Shown: in pieces, positions 24,219-31,954 of the stretch
How the letters are laid out: every line of letters starts with the position of its first letter
Numbering within the stretch: position 1 is the stretch's first letter
Assembly (NCBI RefSeq): GCF_029589435.1
Contig: NZ_JARRAG010000001.1
Location: 982,808-1,046,807 of the forward strand
Direction of reading: 5' to 3'
Length of the DNA stretch: 64,000 nucleotides
From: Paludisphaera mucosa
GTDB taxonomy: Bacteria; Planctomycetota; Planctomycetia; Isosphaerales; Isosphaeraceae
The notes under the pieces: model-generated
Told to the model about the DNA's origin: nothing
Databases searched by the model: none
What the model saw: only the letters and a program-made list of their open reading frames with translations
Translations under genes and position numbers: made by a program

Positions 24219-24746
24219 ATGCGTTTCGTCCTCATCGATCGGATCCTCGACGTCCAGCCCGGCCGCTCGCTGCACGCCGTCAAGAACCTCTCGCTCGCCG
24301 AGGAATACCTCGCCGACCACTTCCCGGGGTTCCCGGTCATGCCCGGCGTGCTCATGCTGGAAGCCCTGACCCAGGCCGGGGCGTGGCTGATCCGCGAGAC
24401 GGAAGACTTCGCCCACAGCATCATCGTCCTCAAGCAGGCCAAGACGATCAAGTACGGCAGCTTCGTCGAGCCCGGCCGTCAGCTGGAGCTGAAGATCGAC
24501 ATGGTCTCCGACGTCGGCGTCGACGCGACCTTCAAGGGCGTCGGCATGATCGACGGCCAGGAGATGGTCAAGGGCCGCATCGTCCTCACGCGATACAACT
24601 TGCGGGAGAAGAACCCGATGTTGCACGGCGTCGACGCCCAGATCGTCGCCGGCCTTCGCGACCTCTATTCGACCCTCCGCAAGGGGTCGGTCGGCGCCCG
24701 CGCCATCGCCAAGACGCCGGAGCCTGCGGGCGTCAAGCTGATCTGA
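24219..24746 (+). CDS. FabZ-like 3-hydroxyacyl-ACP dehydratase, locus copy 1
   Basis: This 175-residue hotdog-fold protein has the FabZ active site: His34 and Glu48 in HFPGFPVMPGVLMLE. It would dehydrate 3-hydroxyacyl-ACP to the trans-2-enoyl form. It is the first gene of the seven-gene locus. It has about 30 residues beyond the FabZ core (DAQIVAGLRDLYSTLRKG). A second dehydratase-like copy lies after the ACP gene. Start ATG 24219 gives an N-terminus MRFVLIDRILDVQPG that aligns with the family. Confidence 0.87.
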   Translation: MRFVLIDRILDVQPGRSLHAVKNLSLAEEYLADHFPGFPVMPGVLMLEALTQAGAWLIRETEDFAHSIIVLKQAKTIKYGSFVEPGRQLELKIDMVSDVGVDATFKGVGMIDGQEMVKGRIVLTRYNLREKNPMLHGVDAQIVAGLRDLYSTLRKGSVGARAIAKTPEPAGVKLI

Positions 24747-25127: not shown

Positions 25128-25514
25128 ATGCCCGCATACGACGAGATCTTCGAGAAGGTCCAGTCCACCCTGGTCGACGCGCTGGGAGTGGACGAGGAGG
25201 ACGTGACCAAAGAGTCCACCCTGCAAGGCGACCTGGGGGCCGAGTCGATCGACTTCCTGGACATCGTCTTCCGCCTCGAGCGGAACTTCGGCATCAAGAT
25301 CCCCCGTGGCGAGCTGTTCCCCGAGAACCTGGTCGCCGATCCCGAGTGGATCAACGACGGCCGGCTCACGACGAAGGGGATCTCCGAGCTGAAGGGCCGC
25401 CTCCCTTTCGCCGACCTGTCGAAGTTCGAGGCCGATCCCGACCTTGAGAAGATGGGCGACCTCTATACGGTGGACATGCTCGTCCAGTACGTGCAGAGCA
25501 AGTTGGCCGCCTGA
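25128..25514 (+). CDS. Acyl carrier protein with C-terminal extension
   Basis: The 128-residue protein begins like a bacterial ACP (MPAYDEIFEKVQSTLVDALG). The phosphopantetheine site is Ser40 in LGAESIDFLDIVF, where the usual DSL is ESI. Typical ACPs are about 80 residues, and this one has roughly 45 more after the core (TTKGISELKGRLPFADLSKF onward). It would carry the growing chain for the neighbouring dehydratases and ketosynthases. A GAGGA ribosome site precedes the ATG. No phosphopantetheinyl transferase is in the window. Confidence 0.87.
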   Translation: MPAYDEIFEKVQSTLVDALGVDEEDVTKESTLQGDLGAESIDFLDIVFRLERNFGIKIPRGELFPENLVADPEWINDGRLTTKGISELKGRLPFADLSKFEADPDLEKMGDLYTVDMLVQYVQSKLAA

Positions 25515-25676: not shown

Positions 25677-26219
25677 ATGCGATGGATCTGGATCGACAAG
25701 TTTGTGGAGTTCCGGAGCGGTCAGTTCGCGCGAGCGATCAAGAACCTGACCCTCGCCGAGGAGCATCTGCACGACCACTTCCCGGGCTACCCGGTCATGC
25801 CCGCGTCGCTCATCATCGAGGGCCTGGCCCAGACCGGCGGGATCCTCGTGGGAGAGGCGGGAGGGTTCGCCGAGAAGGTGGTGCTGGCCAAGATCCCCCG
25901 GGCCGAGTTCTTCGGCGTCGCCTGCGCCGGCGACCAGCTGATCTATGAGGTGACGCTCACCGACCTCCGCGCCGAGGGGGCCGTGGTCGAGGGCAAGGCT
26001 TTCCTCGGGACCGAGCTGCTGGCCGACGTGGAGATCGTCTTCGCGCACCTCGACAACACCCGGGCCAACCAGATCTTCGGCCCCAAGAATTTCGTCTTCA
26101 CGCAGCAGCTCCTGGGCGTCCTCGACCTCGCCAAGGCGCAGCAGCGCGCCAAGGAGAACGAAGGAGCCCTGGCCGATGGCGAGGTCAACGGCGAGGCCCC
26201 GGTCGCGCCGACGCCCTGA
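25677..26219 (+). CDS. FabZ-like hotdog dehydratase, locus copy 2
   Basis: The 180-residue protein is collinear with the first dehydratase: His34 and Glu48 lie at the same positions in HFPGYPVMPASLIIE, but the Gly after the second Pro is Ala. The middle part (AKIPRAEFFGVACAGDQLIY) is FabZ-like. Two dehydratases in one locus may form a heterodimer or act at different chain lengths. The N-terminus MRWIWIDKFVEF aligns with that of copy 1, which supports ATG 25677. Frames upstream to 25545 are Pro/Ala-rich and not conserved. Confidence 0.83.
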   Translation: MRWIWIDKFVEFRSGQFARAIKNLTLAEEHLHDHFPGYPVMPASLIIEGLAQTGGILVGEAGGFAEKVVLAKIPRAEFFGVACAGDQLIYEVTLTDLRAEGAVVEGKAFLGTELLADVEIVFAHLDNTRANQIFGPKNFVFTQQLLGVLDLAKAQQRAKENEGALADGEVNGEAPVAPTP

Positions 26220-26355
26220 GACGGTCGCCAAATATGCGGGATTCGGGTAGACTAATCGCATTCGGAGATTCGTGACGTCGCGCGGGAGGGTCCGATCAGG
26301 GCCGTCCCAGGGCGAACGAGTCGCAGGCCCTCACCGGGAGTTCGACGGGTCATTC

Positions 26356-27678
26356 ATGCTTGGTTCCGAACGCCGCGTCGTCATCACCGGGATAGGTTTC
26401 GTCACGCCCCTGGGTGACGCTCCGGATCGCATCTGGGAGCGGCTCGCCTCCGGCCAAGGGGCGCTGCGACGCGTGGAGGCTTTCCCCGTCGAGGGCCTGC
26501 CCAACGACATCGTCGCCGAGATCCGCGACTTCGACTTCCTCAAGGGCTACGCCCTGCCGAAATACCGCAACGCACTCCGCAAGAGCCGGAAGTACATGGC
26601 CCGGGACATCCAGCTCGCAGTGGCCGCGGCCCAGCGGGCGATGGATGACGCGGGCCTCGTCGACGGCGGCGTCGAGCCCACGCGGATCGGCATCGACCTG
26701 GGCGCCGGCCTGATCTCGACCGAGCTCGACGAGCTGGCGCCGGCGATCTCGATGGCCTCGGCGAACACCGGCCAGTTCGAGTTCCCGGTCTGGGGCCGTG
26801 AGGCGATCGGGGTCATCGAGCCGATCTGGCTGCTGAAGTATCTTCCCAACATGCTGGCCTGCCACATCTCGATCCTGATGGACTGCCAGGGGCCCAGCAA
26901 CACGATCACCGAGGCCGACGCCTCGTCGAACCTGGCCATCGCCGAGGCCGCGCGGATCATCGCCCGCGGCAAGGCCGACGTCATGATCACCGGCGGGGCC
27001 GACTCGAAAATCCACCCGCTGAGCCTCACCCGGATGGCCCTCTACAACACGATGTCGCGCTGGGAGGGGGAACCATCGGCGGGCCTCCGCCCGTTCGACG
27101 CGCGTCGCGACGGCAGCCTGCCGGGCGAAGGGGCGGGGATCCTGATCCTCGAGGAGCTGGGCCACGCGCTCCGGCGGGGCGTCAAGATCCACGGCGAGAT
27201 CCTGGGTGCGGGCTCGGGCTGCGACGCGGTCCCGAGCGGCGGCCAGGACCCGCAGGGCAGCGGGACCGAGATCGCCGTCAAGGGGGCGCTCCGAGAGGCC
27301 CGCCTGGGCCCCGGCGACGTCGGACACGTCAACGCCCACGGCTCGGGCTCGAAGCTGGGCGACCTCGCGGAGGCGCGGGCCTTCGAGCGCGTCTTCGGAC
27401 GCTCGGGCGTGCCGGTCGTCGGCCTCAAGGGCTTCCTCGGCAACATCGCCTCGGGCGCGGGGGCGGTCGAGCTGATCGCCAGCCTCGTGGGCGTGAATCG
27501 CGGCCTCATCCCGCCGACCTTGAACTGCGACGACCTCGACCCCGGCTGCGGGATCGACGTCGTGGTCGGCGGCCCCCGCGCCACGGATAACCCCGTCTTT
27601 GTGAACACGAACGTCACCATCAACGGCCAGGCTTCCGCGGTCGTGGTCAAGGGCGGGCCCGTCGATCCCGCAGGCTGA
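26356..27678 (+). CDS. Ketosynthase-fold protein lacking catalytic Cys (KS-beta/CLF-like)
   Basis: The 440-residue thiolase-fold protein begins ERRVVITGIGFVTPLGD, like FabF. The nucleophile motif (normally TACSS) reads EADASS, placing Ala189 where Cys should be. The first His is kept (H328 in VNAHGSGSKLGD), but the second (normally KSMTGH) is Asn363 in KGFLGNIASGAG. It cannot be a normal condensing enzyme. By analogy with chain length factors of type II PKS and aryl-polyene systems it may pair with the intact ketosynthase encoded 73 bases downstream. GTG 26272 would add 28 nonconserved residues. Confidence 0.85.
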   Translation: MLGSERRVVITGIGFVTPLGDAPDRIWERLASGQGALRRVEAFPVEGLPNDIVAEIRDFDFLKGYALPKYRNALRKSRKYMARDIQLAVAAAQRAMDDAGLVDGGVEPTRIGIDLGAGLISTELDELAPAISMASANTGQFEFPVWGREAIGVIEPIWLLKYLPNMLACHISILMDCQGPSNTITEADASSNLAIAEAARIIARGKADVMITGGADSKIHPLSLTRMALYNTMSRWEGEPSAGLRPFDARRDGSLPGEGAGILILEELGHALRRGVKIHGEILGAGSGCDAVPSGGQDPQGSGTEIAVKGALREARLGPGDVGHVNAHGSGSKLGDLAEARAFERVFGRSGVPVVGLKGFLGNIASGAGAVELIASLVGVNRGLIPPTLNCDDLDPGCGIDVVVGGPRATDNPVFVNTNVTINGQASAVVVKGGPVDPAG

Positions 27679-27751: not shown

Positions 27752-29038
27752 ATGCGGCGGGTCGTCGTCACAGGAATGGGAATGGTCACCCCGGTGGGCG
27801 GGGACGTCGAGTCGACGTGGTCCGCGCTGCTGGCCGGCAAGAGCGGCGTGGGCGCGATCTCGCTCTTCGACGCGCACACCTTCCCCACCCGGATCGCCGC
27901 CGAGGTCAAGGGCTTCGACCTCTCGTCCTACATCGACGACGCCGACCGCTGGACCGAGCATTCCCGCAACACCCGCTTCGCCCTGGCCGCCGGCAAGATG
28001 GCGATGGACGATTCGGGCCTTTCGACCCACGACGGCCCGTTCGACCGCTCGCGGTTCGGCGTCTATCTCGGCGCCGGCGAGGGCCAGCAGGACTTCGTCC
28101 GGTTCGTGAAGCTGGTCTACAAGACCGGGAAGTCGGGCAAGGTCGCCACGAACGAATTCACCAAGCACGGCGCCCAGGACCTGCACGTCGTCCACGAATC
28201 CGAGCAGGAGCCGGGGACGCCCGCCGCCCACCTTGCGGCCCGGTTCGGGGCCAAGGGGCCGAACTCGAACTGCCTCACGGCCTGCGCCGCCAGCTCGCAG
28301 GCGATCGGCGAGGCCTACGAGATGATCCGCCACGACTGCGCCGACGTCATGCTCTCGGGCGGCACGCACAGCATGATCCACCCGTTCGGCGTTACGGGGT
28401 TCATCCTGCTGACGGCCCTGTCGACCCGCAACGACGAGCCCGCGAAGGCCAGCCGCCCGTTCGACCGCGACCGCGACGGCTTCATCATCGGCGAAGGGGC
28501 GGGCATGCTCGTCCTGGAGGAGCTGGAGCACGCCAAGGCTCGCGGCGCCAAGATCTACGGCGAGATCGTCGGCTACGGCTCGACGGCCGACGCCTTTCGC
28601 ATCACCGACAGCCACGAGGAAGGCCGGGGCGCGATCGCCTGCCTCCGCGAGGCCCTCGAGGGCGCGGGGATCGAGCCCGAGGCGATCGACTACATCAACG
28701 CCCACGGCACCAGCACGTCGGTCAACGACTCGGTCGAGACCCTGGCGATCAAGAAGACGTTCGGCGACGCCGCGTACACCGTGCCGATCTCCAGCACCAA
28801 GAGCATGATGGGGCACCTGATCGCCGCCGCCGGCAGCGTCGAGGCGATCGTCTGCCTGCTGACCATCCGCGACGGCCTGCTGCCGCCGACGATCAACCTG
28901 GACAACCCGGATCCCGAGTGCGACCTCGATTACATCCCCCACGAGGCGCGGAAGAAGCGGGTCGACGTGGCGCTCTCCAACAGCTTCGGCTTCGGCGGGC
29001 AGAACATCACCTTGATCTTGAAACGCTACACCGACTGA
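27752..29038 (+). CDS. Beta-ketoacyl-ACP synthase II-type ketosynthase (KS-alpha)
   Basis: The 428-residue enzyme has the complete Cys-His-His triad: Cys178 in LTACAASSQ, His318 in INAHGTSTS and His355 in KSMMGHLIAAAG, as in FabF. It would condense malonyl-ACP with acyl chains on the nearby ACP. The N-terminus MRRVVVTGMGMVTPVGG supports ATG 27752. It follows the degenerate ketosynthase gene closely, as KS-alpha/KS-beta genes do. An insertion-like stretch around HGAQDLHVVHESEQEPG distinguishes it from housekeeping FabF. Confidence 0.92.
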   Translation: MRRVVVTGMGMVTPVGGDVESTWSALLAGKSGVGAISLFDAHTFPTRIAAEVKGFDLSSYIDDADRWTEHSRNTRFALAAGKMAMDDSGLSTHDGPFDRSRFGVYLGAGEGQQDFVRFVKLVYKTGKSGKVATNEFTKHGAQDLHVVHESEQEPGTPAAHLAARFGAKGPNSNCLTACAASSQAIGEAYEMIRHDCADVMLSGGTHSMIHPFGVTGFILLTALSTRNDEPAKASRPFDRDRDGFIIGEGAGMLVLEELEHAKARGAKIYGEIVGYGSTADAFRITDSHEEGRGAIACLREALEGAGIEPEAIDYINAHGTSTSVNDSVETLAIKKTFGDAAYTVPISSTKSMMGHLIAAAGSVEAIVCLLTIRDGLLPPTINLDNPDPECDLDYIPHEARKKRVDVALSNSFGFGGQNITLILKRYTD

Positions 29039-29138: not shown

Positions 29139-30230
29139 GTGGTCGGCCTCTCTACGCTGCTCATCGCCCTCGCGGTCCTCGCGACGATCCCCGTCGTCGC
29201 GCTCGGCGGCTTCCTCGTCGCCACGATCTGGCTGTACTGCCCGGTGATCCGACGGATCTTCGAAGATCGTCCGGTCTTCCAGCCGCTGAAGGTCAAGCCG
29301 GACGACCTCGGCGAACCGGCCGCGTTCGCCTCGTCCGACGGCCTGACGCTCAGGGGAAGCTATTTCAAGGCCCGCACCGACGCACGCGTCGGGGTGCTCG
29401 TCTTCTGCCACGAGTTCCTCAGCGACCGCTGGAGCTACGCGCCTTATCTCGACCACTTGCGGGATCGCGGCTTCGACGTCTTCAGCTTCGATTTCCGGAG
29501 CCATGGCGCGAGCGCCGTCGACCCGGCCTACGAGCCCTTGCAGTACGCGTCCAACCACGAGGTCGACGACCTCCGGAGCGCGCTGGCGTATCTTCGGTCG
29601 CGTCCCGACCGCGACCTCTCCGGCTACGGCCTCTTCGGCGTGAGCCGAGGCGGCGGCGCGGCCCTCCTGGTCGCCGCCGACGAGCCCGACGTCTGGGGCG
29701 TCGTGACCGACGGGGCCTTCCCCACCCGCGGCACGATGACCTCCTACATCGTCCGCTGGGCGGAGATCTACGTCCGCTGCCGCTGGTTCCTCGCCCTCGT
29801 GCCCCGGTTCATCTTCGCCACCCTGGGCGACGTGGCCCGCGCCGGCACCGAACGGACCCGGAACTGTCATTACCCCAGCGTCGAACGGGCCGTCGCGCGG
29901 CTCACGCCCCGACCCTGGCTCCAGATCCACGGCCAGCGCGACGTCTACATCGGGACCGACATCGCCCACGAGTTTTTCGCCCGGGCCCGCGAGCCCAAAG
30001 AACAGTGGATGGTGGCCGACGCCAAGCACAATCGCTGCCGCGAATCGGCCCCCGAGGCCTACGCTTGGCGACTCGGCGCCTACGTCGACCGCCATGCGCC
30101 CCGACGCCCCCTGGCCGAGTTCGAGAACGAACTCGTCGAGGCGGACTTCTCCGCGTTCGCCGCCGCGGCGACCGCCCGCGTCGAGGCTCCAGGGCACATC
30201 CCGAACGTCGCTTCATCCGTCACCGGCTGA
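29139..30230 (+). CDS. Membrane-anchored alpha/beta hydrolase
   Basis: The 363-residue protein starts with a transmembrane segment (LSTLLIALAVLATIPVVALG). The hydrolase core shows the nucleophile elbow FGVSRGGGAALL, an Asp in QIHGQRDVYIG and the His in VADAKHNRC. The lid helices lie around SYIVRWAEIYVRCRW. It could release or transfer acyl chains made by the preceding genes, which is an inference from position. GTG 29139 is the start used. GH3 begins 29 bases after its stop. Confidence 0.82.
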   Translation: MVGLSTLLIALAVLATIPVVALGGFLVATIWLYCPVIRRIFEDRPVFQPLKVKPDDLGEPAAFASSDGLTLRGSYFKARTDARVGVLVFCHEFLSDRWSYAPYLDHLRDRGFDVFSFDFRSHGASAVDPAYEPLQYASNHEVDDLRSALAYLRSRPDRDLSGYGLFGVSRGGGAALLVAADEPDVWGVVTDGAFPTRGTMTSYIVRWAEIYVRCRWFLALVPRFIFATLGDVARAGTERTRNCHYPSVERAVARLTPRPWLQIHGQRDVYIGTDIAHEFFARAREPKEQWMVADAKHNRCRESAPEAYAWRLGAYVDRHAPRRPLAEFENELVEADFSAFAAAATARVEAPGHIPNVASSVTG

Positions 30231-30259: not shown

Positions 30260-31954
30260 ATGCTCAGATTCATCAAGCGGCTCGTCGGCCGCCCGATCGC
30301 GAACCGCGCCCGCCGATTGGCGGTCGAGTTCCATCAGCAGACTAAGCGGGCCGGCGCGTTCCAGCGCGAGCTGCTCCTCTCCCGGATCGCCCGCAACGCC
30401 GACAGCGCCTTCGGACGCGACCACCATTTCGGCGAGATCCACAGCCCCGAAGACTTCCGCCGCCAGGTGCCGATCGCCGACTACACCCGCCACGAGCCCT
30501 ACATCGACCGCGTCCGCAACGGCGACGTCTCGGCCCTCTTCGGCCCGGGGACGGAAGTCCTCATGTTCGCCATGACGTCGGGCACGACCAACCGGCCCAA
30601 GACCATCCCCGTGACCCGAGAGGCCCTCAACAACTACCGCGAGGGCTGGCTCATCTGGGGTATACAGGCGTTCGACGCCCACCCCGACATCATCGAGAAC
30701 GGCCTCCGCCCGATCCTCCAGATCGCCAGCGACTGGCGCGAGAGCTATACGCCCGCCGGGATCCCCTGCGGGGCCATCACCGGCCTCACGGCGTCGATGC
30801 AGTCGCGGATGATCCGGACCACCTACTGCATGCCGCCGTCGGGTTCGCGCATCAAGGACGTCGAGTCGAAGTATTACGTCGCCCTCCGCTACTCGATCTA
30901 CAAGAACCTCGGCACCATCATCGCGGCCAACCCCAGCACGATCCTCAACATGGTCCGCCTCGGCGACCGCGAGCGCGAGACCTTGATCCGCGACCTTCAT
31001 GACGGCACCCTCGCCACCCGCTGGTCGATCCCCGACGACGTCCGCAGGGAGCTTCGATTCCGGACCCGCATCCGCCGCAAGGACGCCGCGCGTCGCCTGG
31101 AGCAGATCGTCTCCGAGACCGGCCGGCTGCTCCCGAAAGACTACTGGCCCAACCTGGAGTTCCTCTCCAACTGGATGGGCGGGACGATGCGGGCCTACCT
31201 CCGAGGCTACCCCGAGTTCTTCGGCGAGAAGCCCGTCCGCGACGTCGGCCTGATCGCTTCCGAGGGCCGGATGACGATCCCGATCGAGGACAACACCCCG
31301 GCCGGGGTCCTCGACATACGCCACCACTACTTCGAGTTCATCCCCGAGGAGGACGCCGACAAGCCCGATCCCCAGACCGTCGAGGCGGTCGACCTGGTGG
31401 AGGGGAAGAACTACTTCGTCCTCCTGACGACGGCGGGGGGATTGTACCGCTACAACATCTTCGACCTGGTGCGCTGCGTGGGGTTCCACGGCGAAGCCCC
31501 GATCGTGGAGTTCCTCAACAAGGGGGCCCATTTCTCCAGCCTGACGGGGGAGAAGCTCTCGGAACACCAGGTGATCACGGCCGTCGAGTCGGCCCAGCGG
31601 AGCGTCGGGCTTCGCCTGCGCTCCTACTTGCTCCTGCCGATCTGGGGCGATCCGCCTTCGTACGGGATCCTCGTCGAGGCCTCGGACCTGCCGGAGGGCG
31701 AGGCCGCCGATCGGTTCACGGCCGAGGTGGAGGAGCAACTCCGGACGCTCAACGTCGAGTACGCCGCCAAGCGCGACAGCCTCCGCCTCGGCCCCGTCCG
31801 CACGATCCGCATCCGGGACGGGGCGTGGGGCGAATTCCAGAAACGCCGCCTCGCCCGCAGCGGCGGGACCGTCGAACAGTATAAGCAACCGCACCTGATC
31901 CCCGACGTCGAGGCGATCCACGCCTTTCCGACGGTCGCGACGATCGGTTCCTGA
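30260..31954 (+). CDS. GH3-family acyl-adenylating enzyme
   Basis: The 564-residue protein matches the GH3 (auxin-responsive promoter) acyl-adenylase family: MTSGTTNRPKTIPVT (ATP-binding P-loop-like motif), GLIASEGRMTIPIED and TAGGLYRYNIFDLVRCVG, with the C-terminal YRSYLLLPIW-like region. Plant GH3 enzymes join acyl groups to amino acids through an acyl-AMP. Bacterial substrates are largely unknown. It closes the seven-gene locus and could activate or conjugate the finished acyl chain. ATG 30260 follows a closely spaced gene. Confidence 0.87.
   Translation: MLRFIKRLVGRPIANRARRLAVEFHQQTKRAGAFQRELLLSRIARNADSAFGRDHHFGEIHSPEDFRRQVPIADYTRHEPYIDRVRNGDVSALFGPGTEVLMFAMTSGTTNRPKTIPVTREALNNYREGWLIWGIQAFDAHPDIIENGLRPILQIASDWRESYTPAGIPCGAITGLTASMQSRMIRTTYCMPPSGSRIKDVESKYYVALRYSIYKNLGTIIAANPSTILNMVRLGDRERETLIRDLHDGTLATRWSIPDDVRRELRFRTRIRRKDAARRLEQIVSETGRLLPKDYWPNLEFLSNWMGGTMRAYLRGYPEFFGEKPVRDVGLIASEGRMTIPIEDNTPAGVLDIRHHYFEFIPEEDADKPDPQTVEAVDLVEGKNYFVLLTTAGGLYRYNIFDLVRCVGFHGEAPIVEFLNKGAHFSSLTGEKLSEHQVITAVESAQRSVGLRLRSYLLLPIWGDPPSYGILVEASDLPEGEAADRFTAEVEEQLRTLNVEYAAKRDSLRLGPVRTIRIRDGAWGEFQKRRLARSGGTVEQYKQPHLIPDVEAIHAFPTVATIGS

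Follow-up and report, generated by a model that had tools for sequence, protein, structure and literature searches.

What can a ketosynthase (KS)-fold protein do once its catalytic cysteine is lost, when it is encoded directly beside an intact KS? This question is raised by two adjacent genes in the window, the 64,000-nucleotide stretch of Paludisphaera mucosa DNA analyzed here (Table 1); the closest named relative is Paludisphaera soli, at 92% identity. An earlier note read the first of them (KS-beta) as a chain length factor (CLF)-type subunit, predicted a heterodimer in which only the second (KS-alpha) condenses, and proposed structure prediction of the pair and a phylogeny against CLF and FabF families as checks.

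Table 1. KS-beta, KS-alpha and neighboring genes in the window.
Feature	Coordinates	Strand	Supporting match or remark
FabZ1, FabA/FabZ-like 3-hydroxyacyl-ACP dehydratase, His and Glu present (HFPGFPVMPGVLMLEA)	24219..24746	+	PF07977, 2.7e-18
ACP, phosphopantetheine motif GAESIDFLD	25128..25514	+	PF00550, 3.3e-10
FabZ2, second FabA/FabZ-like dehydratase (HFPGYPVMPASLIIEG)	25677..26219	+	PF07977, 1.2e-14
KS-beta, Asp188 ketosynthase fold, 440 aa	26356..27678	+	PF00109 + PF02801
KS-alpha, FabF-type condensing enzyme	27752..29038	+	TIGR03150, 517.6 bits (cut-off 493.75)
Alpha/beta hydrolase, GVSRG motif	29139..30230	+	PF12146, 6.6e-11; position after KS-alpha conserved
GH3-family acyl-amino-acid synthetase	30260..31954	+	PF03321, 7.9e-71

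The open reading frame, coordinates and KS fold first described for KS-beta are all borne out: the protein has both ketosynthase domains (PF00109 and PF02801) and the KS/thiolase fold (Z 61.7 vs. FabF). The ATG at 26356, rather than the upstream GTG at 26272, is likely the start, because the orthologues, to which this ATG is common, have the same beginning, M-[LPV]-x-S-[EQ]-RRVVITG. The best profile matches are FabF-type, with the FabF equivalog TIGR03150 at 295 bits, under its curated cut-off of 493.75; structure searches (Foldseek, VIA) put FabF chains on top and do not discriminate between CLF and FabF. Automatic annotation labels these Cys-less proteins FabF, a warning for annotation users. 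The dN/dS values of KS-beta (0.09–0.45) indicate purifying selection; those of KS-alpha are 0.11–0.25.

The catalytic Cys-His-His of FabF is absent from KS-beta, which has Asp188, His328, and Asn363 instead. Asp188 sits at FabF Cys163 in an ungapped PDB alignment (GPSNTITEADASSN vs. GPSSTVVTACATGA), and alignment with the neighboring KS-alpha also places it at the nucleophile position; Ala189, first taken as the replacement for Cys, is one residue off and is ruled out by the ungapped alignments as the conserved residue right after that position. The retention of His328 (FabF His303) and the presence of Asn363 in place of the second catalytic His (FabF His340) had been read correctly, and Lys358 (FabF Lys335) is retained as well. 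The gate motif GFGG is replaced by T-I-N-G, with Ile422 in place of FabF Phe400. The KSQ decarboxylase signature (Gln for Cys plus both His) is absent, given Asp188 and Asn363. KS-alpha has a complete set of site residues (Cys195, His335, Lys367, His372, and the GFGG gate); this numbering begins at an ATG further upstream (27701), and the likely start is 27752.

Relatives were drawn from genome contigs and a Planctomycetota genome set. Across 124 distinct Cys-less relatives, all from Planctomycetota, the Cys163 position is occupied by Asp (66), Glu (55), Asn (2), or Gly (1); because it is an acid in 121 of the 124, its presence there is, judged from these sequences, not chance. The first His is retained in 109 and the Lys335 equivalent in 119; at position 340, 78 have Asn and 32 have His. 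One locus (L153) is intermediate, the change from Cys to Asp being the sole one with the remaining site residues intact. One acid-type subclade, still paired with KS-alpha, has retained the acid and lost both His and Lys (EF[AKV][NA]). Among the phylum-labeled loci of the genome-contig scan, which was limited by its search pattern, the Cys-less proteins belong to Planctomycetota and the others checked carry Cys. Two MAGs (L068, L073) labeled Candidatus Kuenenia have KS-beta of a non-anammox type (DHKHT/S), and these labels are probably wrong.

The genes around KS-beta are shared by related loci. Families f101, f102, and f104 have the order FabZ1-KR-ACP-FabZ2-KSbeta-KSalpha-hydrolase, usually with GH3 next, and the place of FabZ1 in the operon is conserved across related loci. 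Isosphaeraceae lack a local KR in the operon; in Paludisphaera, FabG is encoded elsewhere in the genome. Coordinates were listed for 42 Isosphaeraceae genomes, and in 39 of them KS-beta adjoins KS-alpha on the same strand; in the remaining three, two pairs are apparently split by contig ends and one genome has no KS-alpha listed. The adjacency also occurs in f101, f102, f104, and several further classes. The case of a lone FabF pseudoenzyme without a co-occurring KS, which the earlier note held against its own reading, is not seen here, as KS-alpha adjoins KS-beta. Several f101 genomes have Gln at the catalytic Glu position of FabZ1, and from sequence one of their two dehydratases may be inactive; in L246, L249, L251, and L253 the region reads HFPTFPVMPGVLMLQ or similar, with E retained in L253.

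The window GH3 is a distant OlsH paralogue, scoring 97.8 bits with the OlsH model (cut-off 620). It is ruled out as OlsH itself: that of the same genome (G000:C1:1063413-1064987, 989 bits) lies ~48 kb away and shares 23% identity with it. The alpha/beta hydrolase 3′ of KS-alpha is possibly an acyltransferase or thioesterase. NCBIfam models of the cispentacin-type (Amc) system match KS, ACP, and FabZ, all far under cut-off, and this system is rejected as an identity for the operon. Elsewhere in the genome (G000:C2:2932315-2941085), very long KS-bearing open reading frames (2320 and 2639 aa) resemble a PUFA synthase-type cluster.

Almost all genomes of the class encode KS-alpha, with a clean count of 292/298 genomes at E ~1e-140 or better; the same figure for KS-beta, counted by E-value alone, is an upper bound, as KS-alpha itself reaches ~1e-84. 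Families f2–f5 often have KS-beta distant from KS-alpha, at times adjoining the housekeeping ACP-FabF, and the partners of KS-beta may therefore differ. In Planctomycetaceae (f2), KS-alpha retains FabZ-KR-ACP-FabZ, and the KS-beta genes lie elsewhere, one of them adjoining ACP-FabF. Acid-type KS-beta adjoins the housekeeping ACP-FabF at L244, L129, L135, L137, L140, and L146, which suggests a second pairing, of FabF with KS-beta, in Planctomycetaceae-type genomes. At L134 and L131, KS-beta has no KS partner alongside.

In a 120-sequence maximum-likelihood tree, the acid KS-beta form one clade (support 100/100), so that the loss of Cys maps as one change of state. The sister of this clade (100/95) is a small planctomycete clade that retains Cys-His-Lys-His-Phe, and planctomycete KS-alpha is in turn the sister group of the two combined (100/99 each; joint 95/99); the joint node with KS-alpha has 100/99 in a second tree, the one with anammox FabFs. 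The Cys-bearing sister persists in Isosphaeraceae, as an additional KS, and in the f18 operon (L122:8730-10268, L257:8227-9507, L144:8683-10056), and L144_8683 lies within a FabZ-ACP-FabZ-KS-KS operon as well. The non-canonical anammox FabFs fall in a separate clade from the acid KS-beta, which rules out a link to these ladderane-associated proteins. Constraining the acid KS-beta and the actinobacterial CLFs to be monophyletic gives −363 log-likelihood units (AU test, p 1e-6), the CLF references being plasmid-borne actinobacterial sequences only; loci L077–L121 held Cys-bearing FabF-type KSs and no CLFs. The phylogeny proposed earlier thus sets the acid clade among planctomycete KSs, next to Cys-bearing sisters and then KS-alpha, and rejects a CLF grouping. 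The designation as a CLF-type subunit stands as far as a non-condensing KS-beta beside an intact KS-alpha is concerned and fails for CLF membership, also on the site signature (D-H-K-N vs. Q-D-K-R in the CLF references). KS-beta looks CLF-like in role and outside the sampled actinobacterial CLF family, and planctomycetes look to have evolved a KS/CLF-like pair independently.

For a joint model, we used loci in which KS-beta, a stop, and KS-alpha lie in one frame, with the stop(s) read as glycine purely as a modeling device, and aligned 12 such read-through pairs. The AlphaFold model (893 residues) has a pTM of 0.92 and a mean pLDDT of 88.4; because KS folds form homodimers readily, these values show compatibility of the two proteins and not a preference for the heterodimer. 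Its best whole-length match among solved structures is the PfaC KS-CLF didomain (6riw), with TM 0.77/0.74 over 961 columns and both lobes matched. The prediction of a non-condensing KS-beta paired with a condensing KS-alpha thus gains support from the intact KS-alpha and from a confident paired model. The interface loop (FabF 131–137) is changed in both paralogues: Trp stands at FabF 133 in 48/49 KS-beta, and in the Cys-bearing sisters too (Trp158 in the window protein), and Glu at FabF 134 in 28/29 KS-alpha. Because each FabF monomer contributes Phe133 to the wall of its partner's acyl pocket, Trp158 may well shape the pocket of KS-alpha.

We consider it likely that KS-beta is the non-condensing, CLF-like subunit of a planctomycete-specific KS-alpha/KS-beta heterodimer. 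The growing acyl chain would move from the operon ACP to the Cys of KS-alpha, which would decarboxylate malonyl-ACP and then condense; FabG, whose gene belongs to the operon in sister families and lies elsewhere in Paludisphaera, and the two FabZ would reduce and dehydrate the chain. KS-beta, in which a thioester would be impossible because the nucleophile is Asp or Glu, would close off the acyl tunnel from its other side, at the dimer interface, and thereby shape chain length or substrate choice in the manner of a CLF. We infer that the pairing is obligate and that KS-beta controls chain length. GH3 and the hydrolase would couple the acyl chain with an amine, giving the final product. The presence of KR and two FabZ, the absence of a local enoyl reductase, and a GH3 with hydrolase as in OlsH/OlsI (PMC12493201) together suggest by analogy an unsaturated or hydroxy acyl chain linked to an amine, the linking step being a tentative assignment.

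It is unlikely, in our assessment, that KS-beta is itself catalytic, with Asp/Glu-His-Lys-Asn decarboxylating malonyl-ACP (KSQ-like priming) or hydrolyzing or cyclizing an ACP-bound chain, in or out of the heterodimer. The conservation of His328 and Lys358 (109/124 and 119/124) exceeds the needs of a purely structural subunit and counts against a passive role, Asn or His occupies position 340 in 110/124, and the actinobacterial CLF references, by contrast, have neither His; moreover, KAS III enzymes decarboxylate by means of a His-Asn pair. A CLF-like subunit has also been proposed as a cyclization factor (PMC10698177). However, a whole KS-alpha-paired subclade lacks the His, so catalysis is not the general role, and an acid in place of the nucleophile would be expected to repel the malonyl carboxylate. 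The shared role of the acid KS-beta is probably structural, because the acid is retained even in this subclade without His and Lys. With His-Lys-Asn conserved in Planctomycetia, malonyl decarboxylation or some other reaction is conceivable. We give little credence to the more ambitious proposition of an essential heterodimeric core-lipid condensing enzyme that arose by one internal Planctomycetota duplication and has an acid subunit that itself decarboxylates, primes, or releases.

The loci at which KS-beta adjoins ACP-FabF, or stands alone, favor a reading in which it pairs mainly with the housekeeping FabF, or acts by itself as a homodimer that binds acyl-ACP or has a regulatory function, and adjacency to KS-alpha reflects co-regulation only. 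This reading is improbable, given that the adjacency is near universal in Isosphaeraceae and recurrent in distant classes, and that the two proteins form sister clades whose interface changes match. Horizontal acquisition of a classical CLF from an actinobacterial-type type II PKS would account for the similar gene logic of a KS pair plus ACP, but is scarcely credible: the AU test refutes it against the sampled, plasmid-borne actinobacterial CLFs, the residue is Asp instead of Gln, and FabF-type profiles score best. The heterodimer with a non-condensing KS-beta is the reading we retain.

Genome G321 is Planctopirus limnophila DSM 3776, its second contig matching plasmid pPLIM01 (100% over the 4 kb compared). 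Its stand-alone KSs number exactly five, of which two are acid-type KS-beta and the others FabF, KS-alpha, and a divergent Cys-KS. In a Tn-seq study of P. limnophila, a paralogue group with five KS members is reported, every one essential (PMC10632474), and we infer that these are the same five. Because KS-alpha occurs in nearly all sampled Planctomycetia and the five-KS group is reported as essential throughout, the KS-alpha/KS-beta function is probably part of core lipid metabolism and not an optional natural product.

If correct, this reading means an independent origin of KS-CLF pairing, in which living Cys-bearing sisters let the steps from a working ketosynthase to a non-condensing partner be traced, and the operon is a concrete handle on unexplained planctomycete lipids. 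Two Rhodopirellula baltica FabF paralogues (NP_865682, NP_866153) with Asp163 or Glu163 and His298 retained (Rattray and colleagues 2009, PMC2649909) evidently belong to the same family as the acid KS-beta; that study lists these two odd active sites, whereas operon, partner, and origin are absent there. A 2023 catalog has Planctomycetes among the phyla with KS-CLF matches (PMC10132072). In the papers searched, we found no description of this operon, of a single origin, of a sister lineage with Cys, or of the KS-beta/KS-alpha pairing; these appear to be new, and the Asp/Glu change has been known since 2009.

Actinobacterial KS-CLF (actinorhodin, 1TQY) has the same heterodimer logic, with a Cys-less KS-fold partner adjoining an intact KS; however, the Act CLF carries Gln in place of the Cys and has neither His left, whereas the planctomycete acid KS-beta has Asp/Glu, mostly retains the first His and Lys, and is of separate origin. 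The two-lobe arrangement of PfaC KS-CLF (6riw) matches the KSbeta-KSalpha model over both halves, although PfaC is a single polypeptide of a PUFA synthase with only 16% identity. The aryl polyene ApeO-ApeC and ishigamide Iga11-Iga12 systems (highly reducing type II PKS) likewise combine KS-CLF with KR, DH, and ACP and lack a clustered enoyl reductase; the planctomycete operon has GH3 and a hydrolase in addition, and ApeC is about half the size (PMC8358021), with about one thiolase domain, unlike the full-length KS-beta with both domains. The Singulisphaera OlsH/OlsI ornithine-lipid pathway (PMC12493201) also has a GH3 plus alpha/beta hydrolase pair in Isosphaeraceae, but the GH3 of the window, a paralogue, goes with a dedicated KS pair. 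Within planctomycetes, the anammox non-canonical FabF/FabB (Kuste3606, Kuste2805) are also Cys-less KSs that adjoin an intact KS, but they have a Val/Phe-Asn-Lys-Glu signature and a separate clade. Two such anammox lineages (F-N-K-E and V-N-K-E), each adjoined by an intact KS, occur at L276, L279, L281, and L272–L274, and are, by their sequences, a separate set of KS pairs within Planctomycetota.
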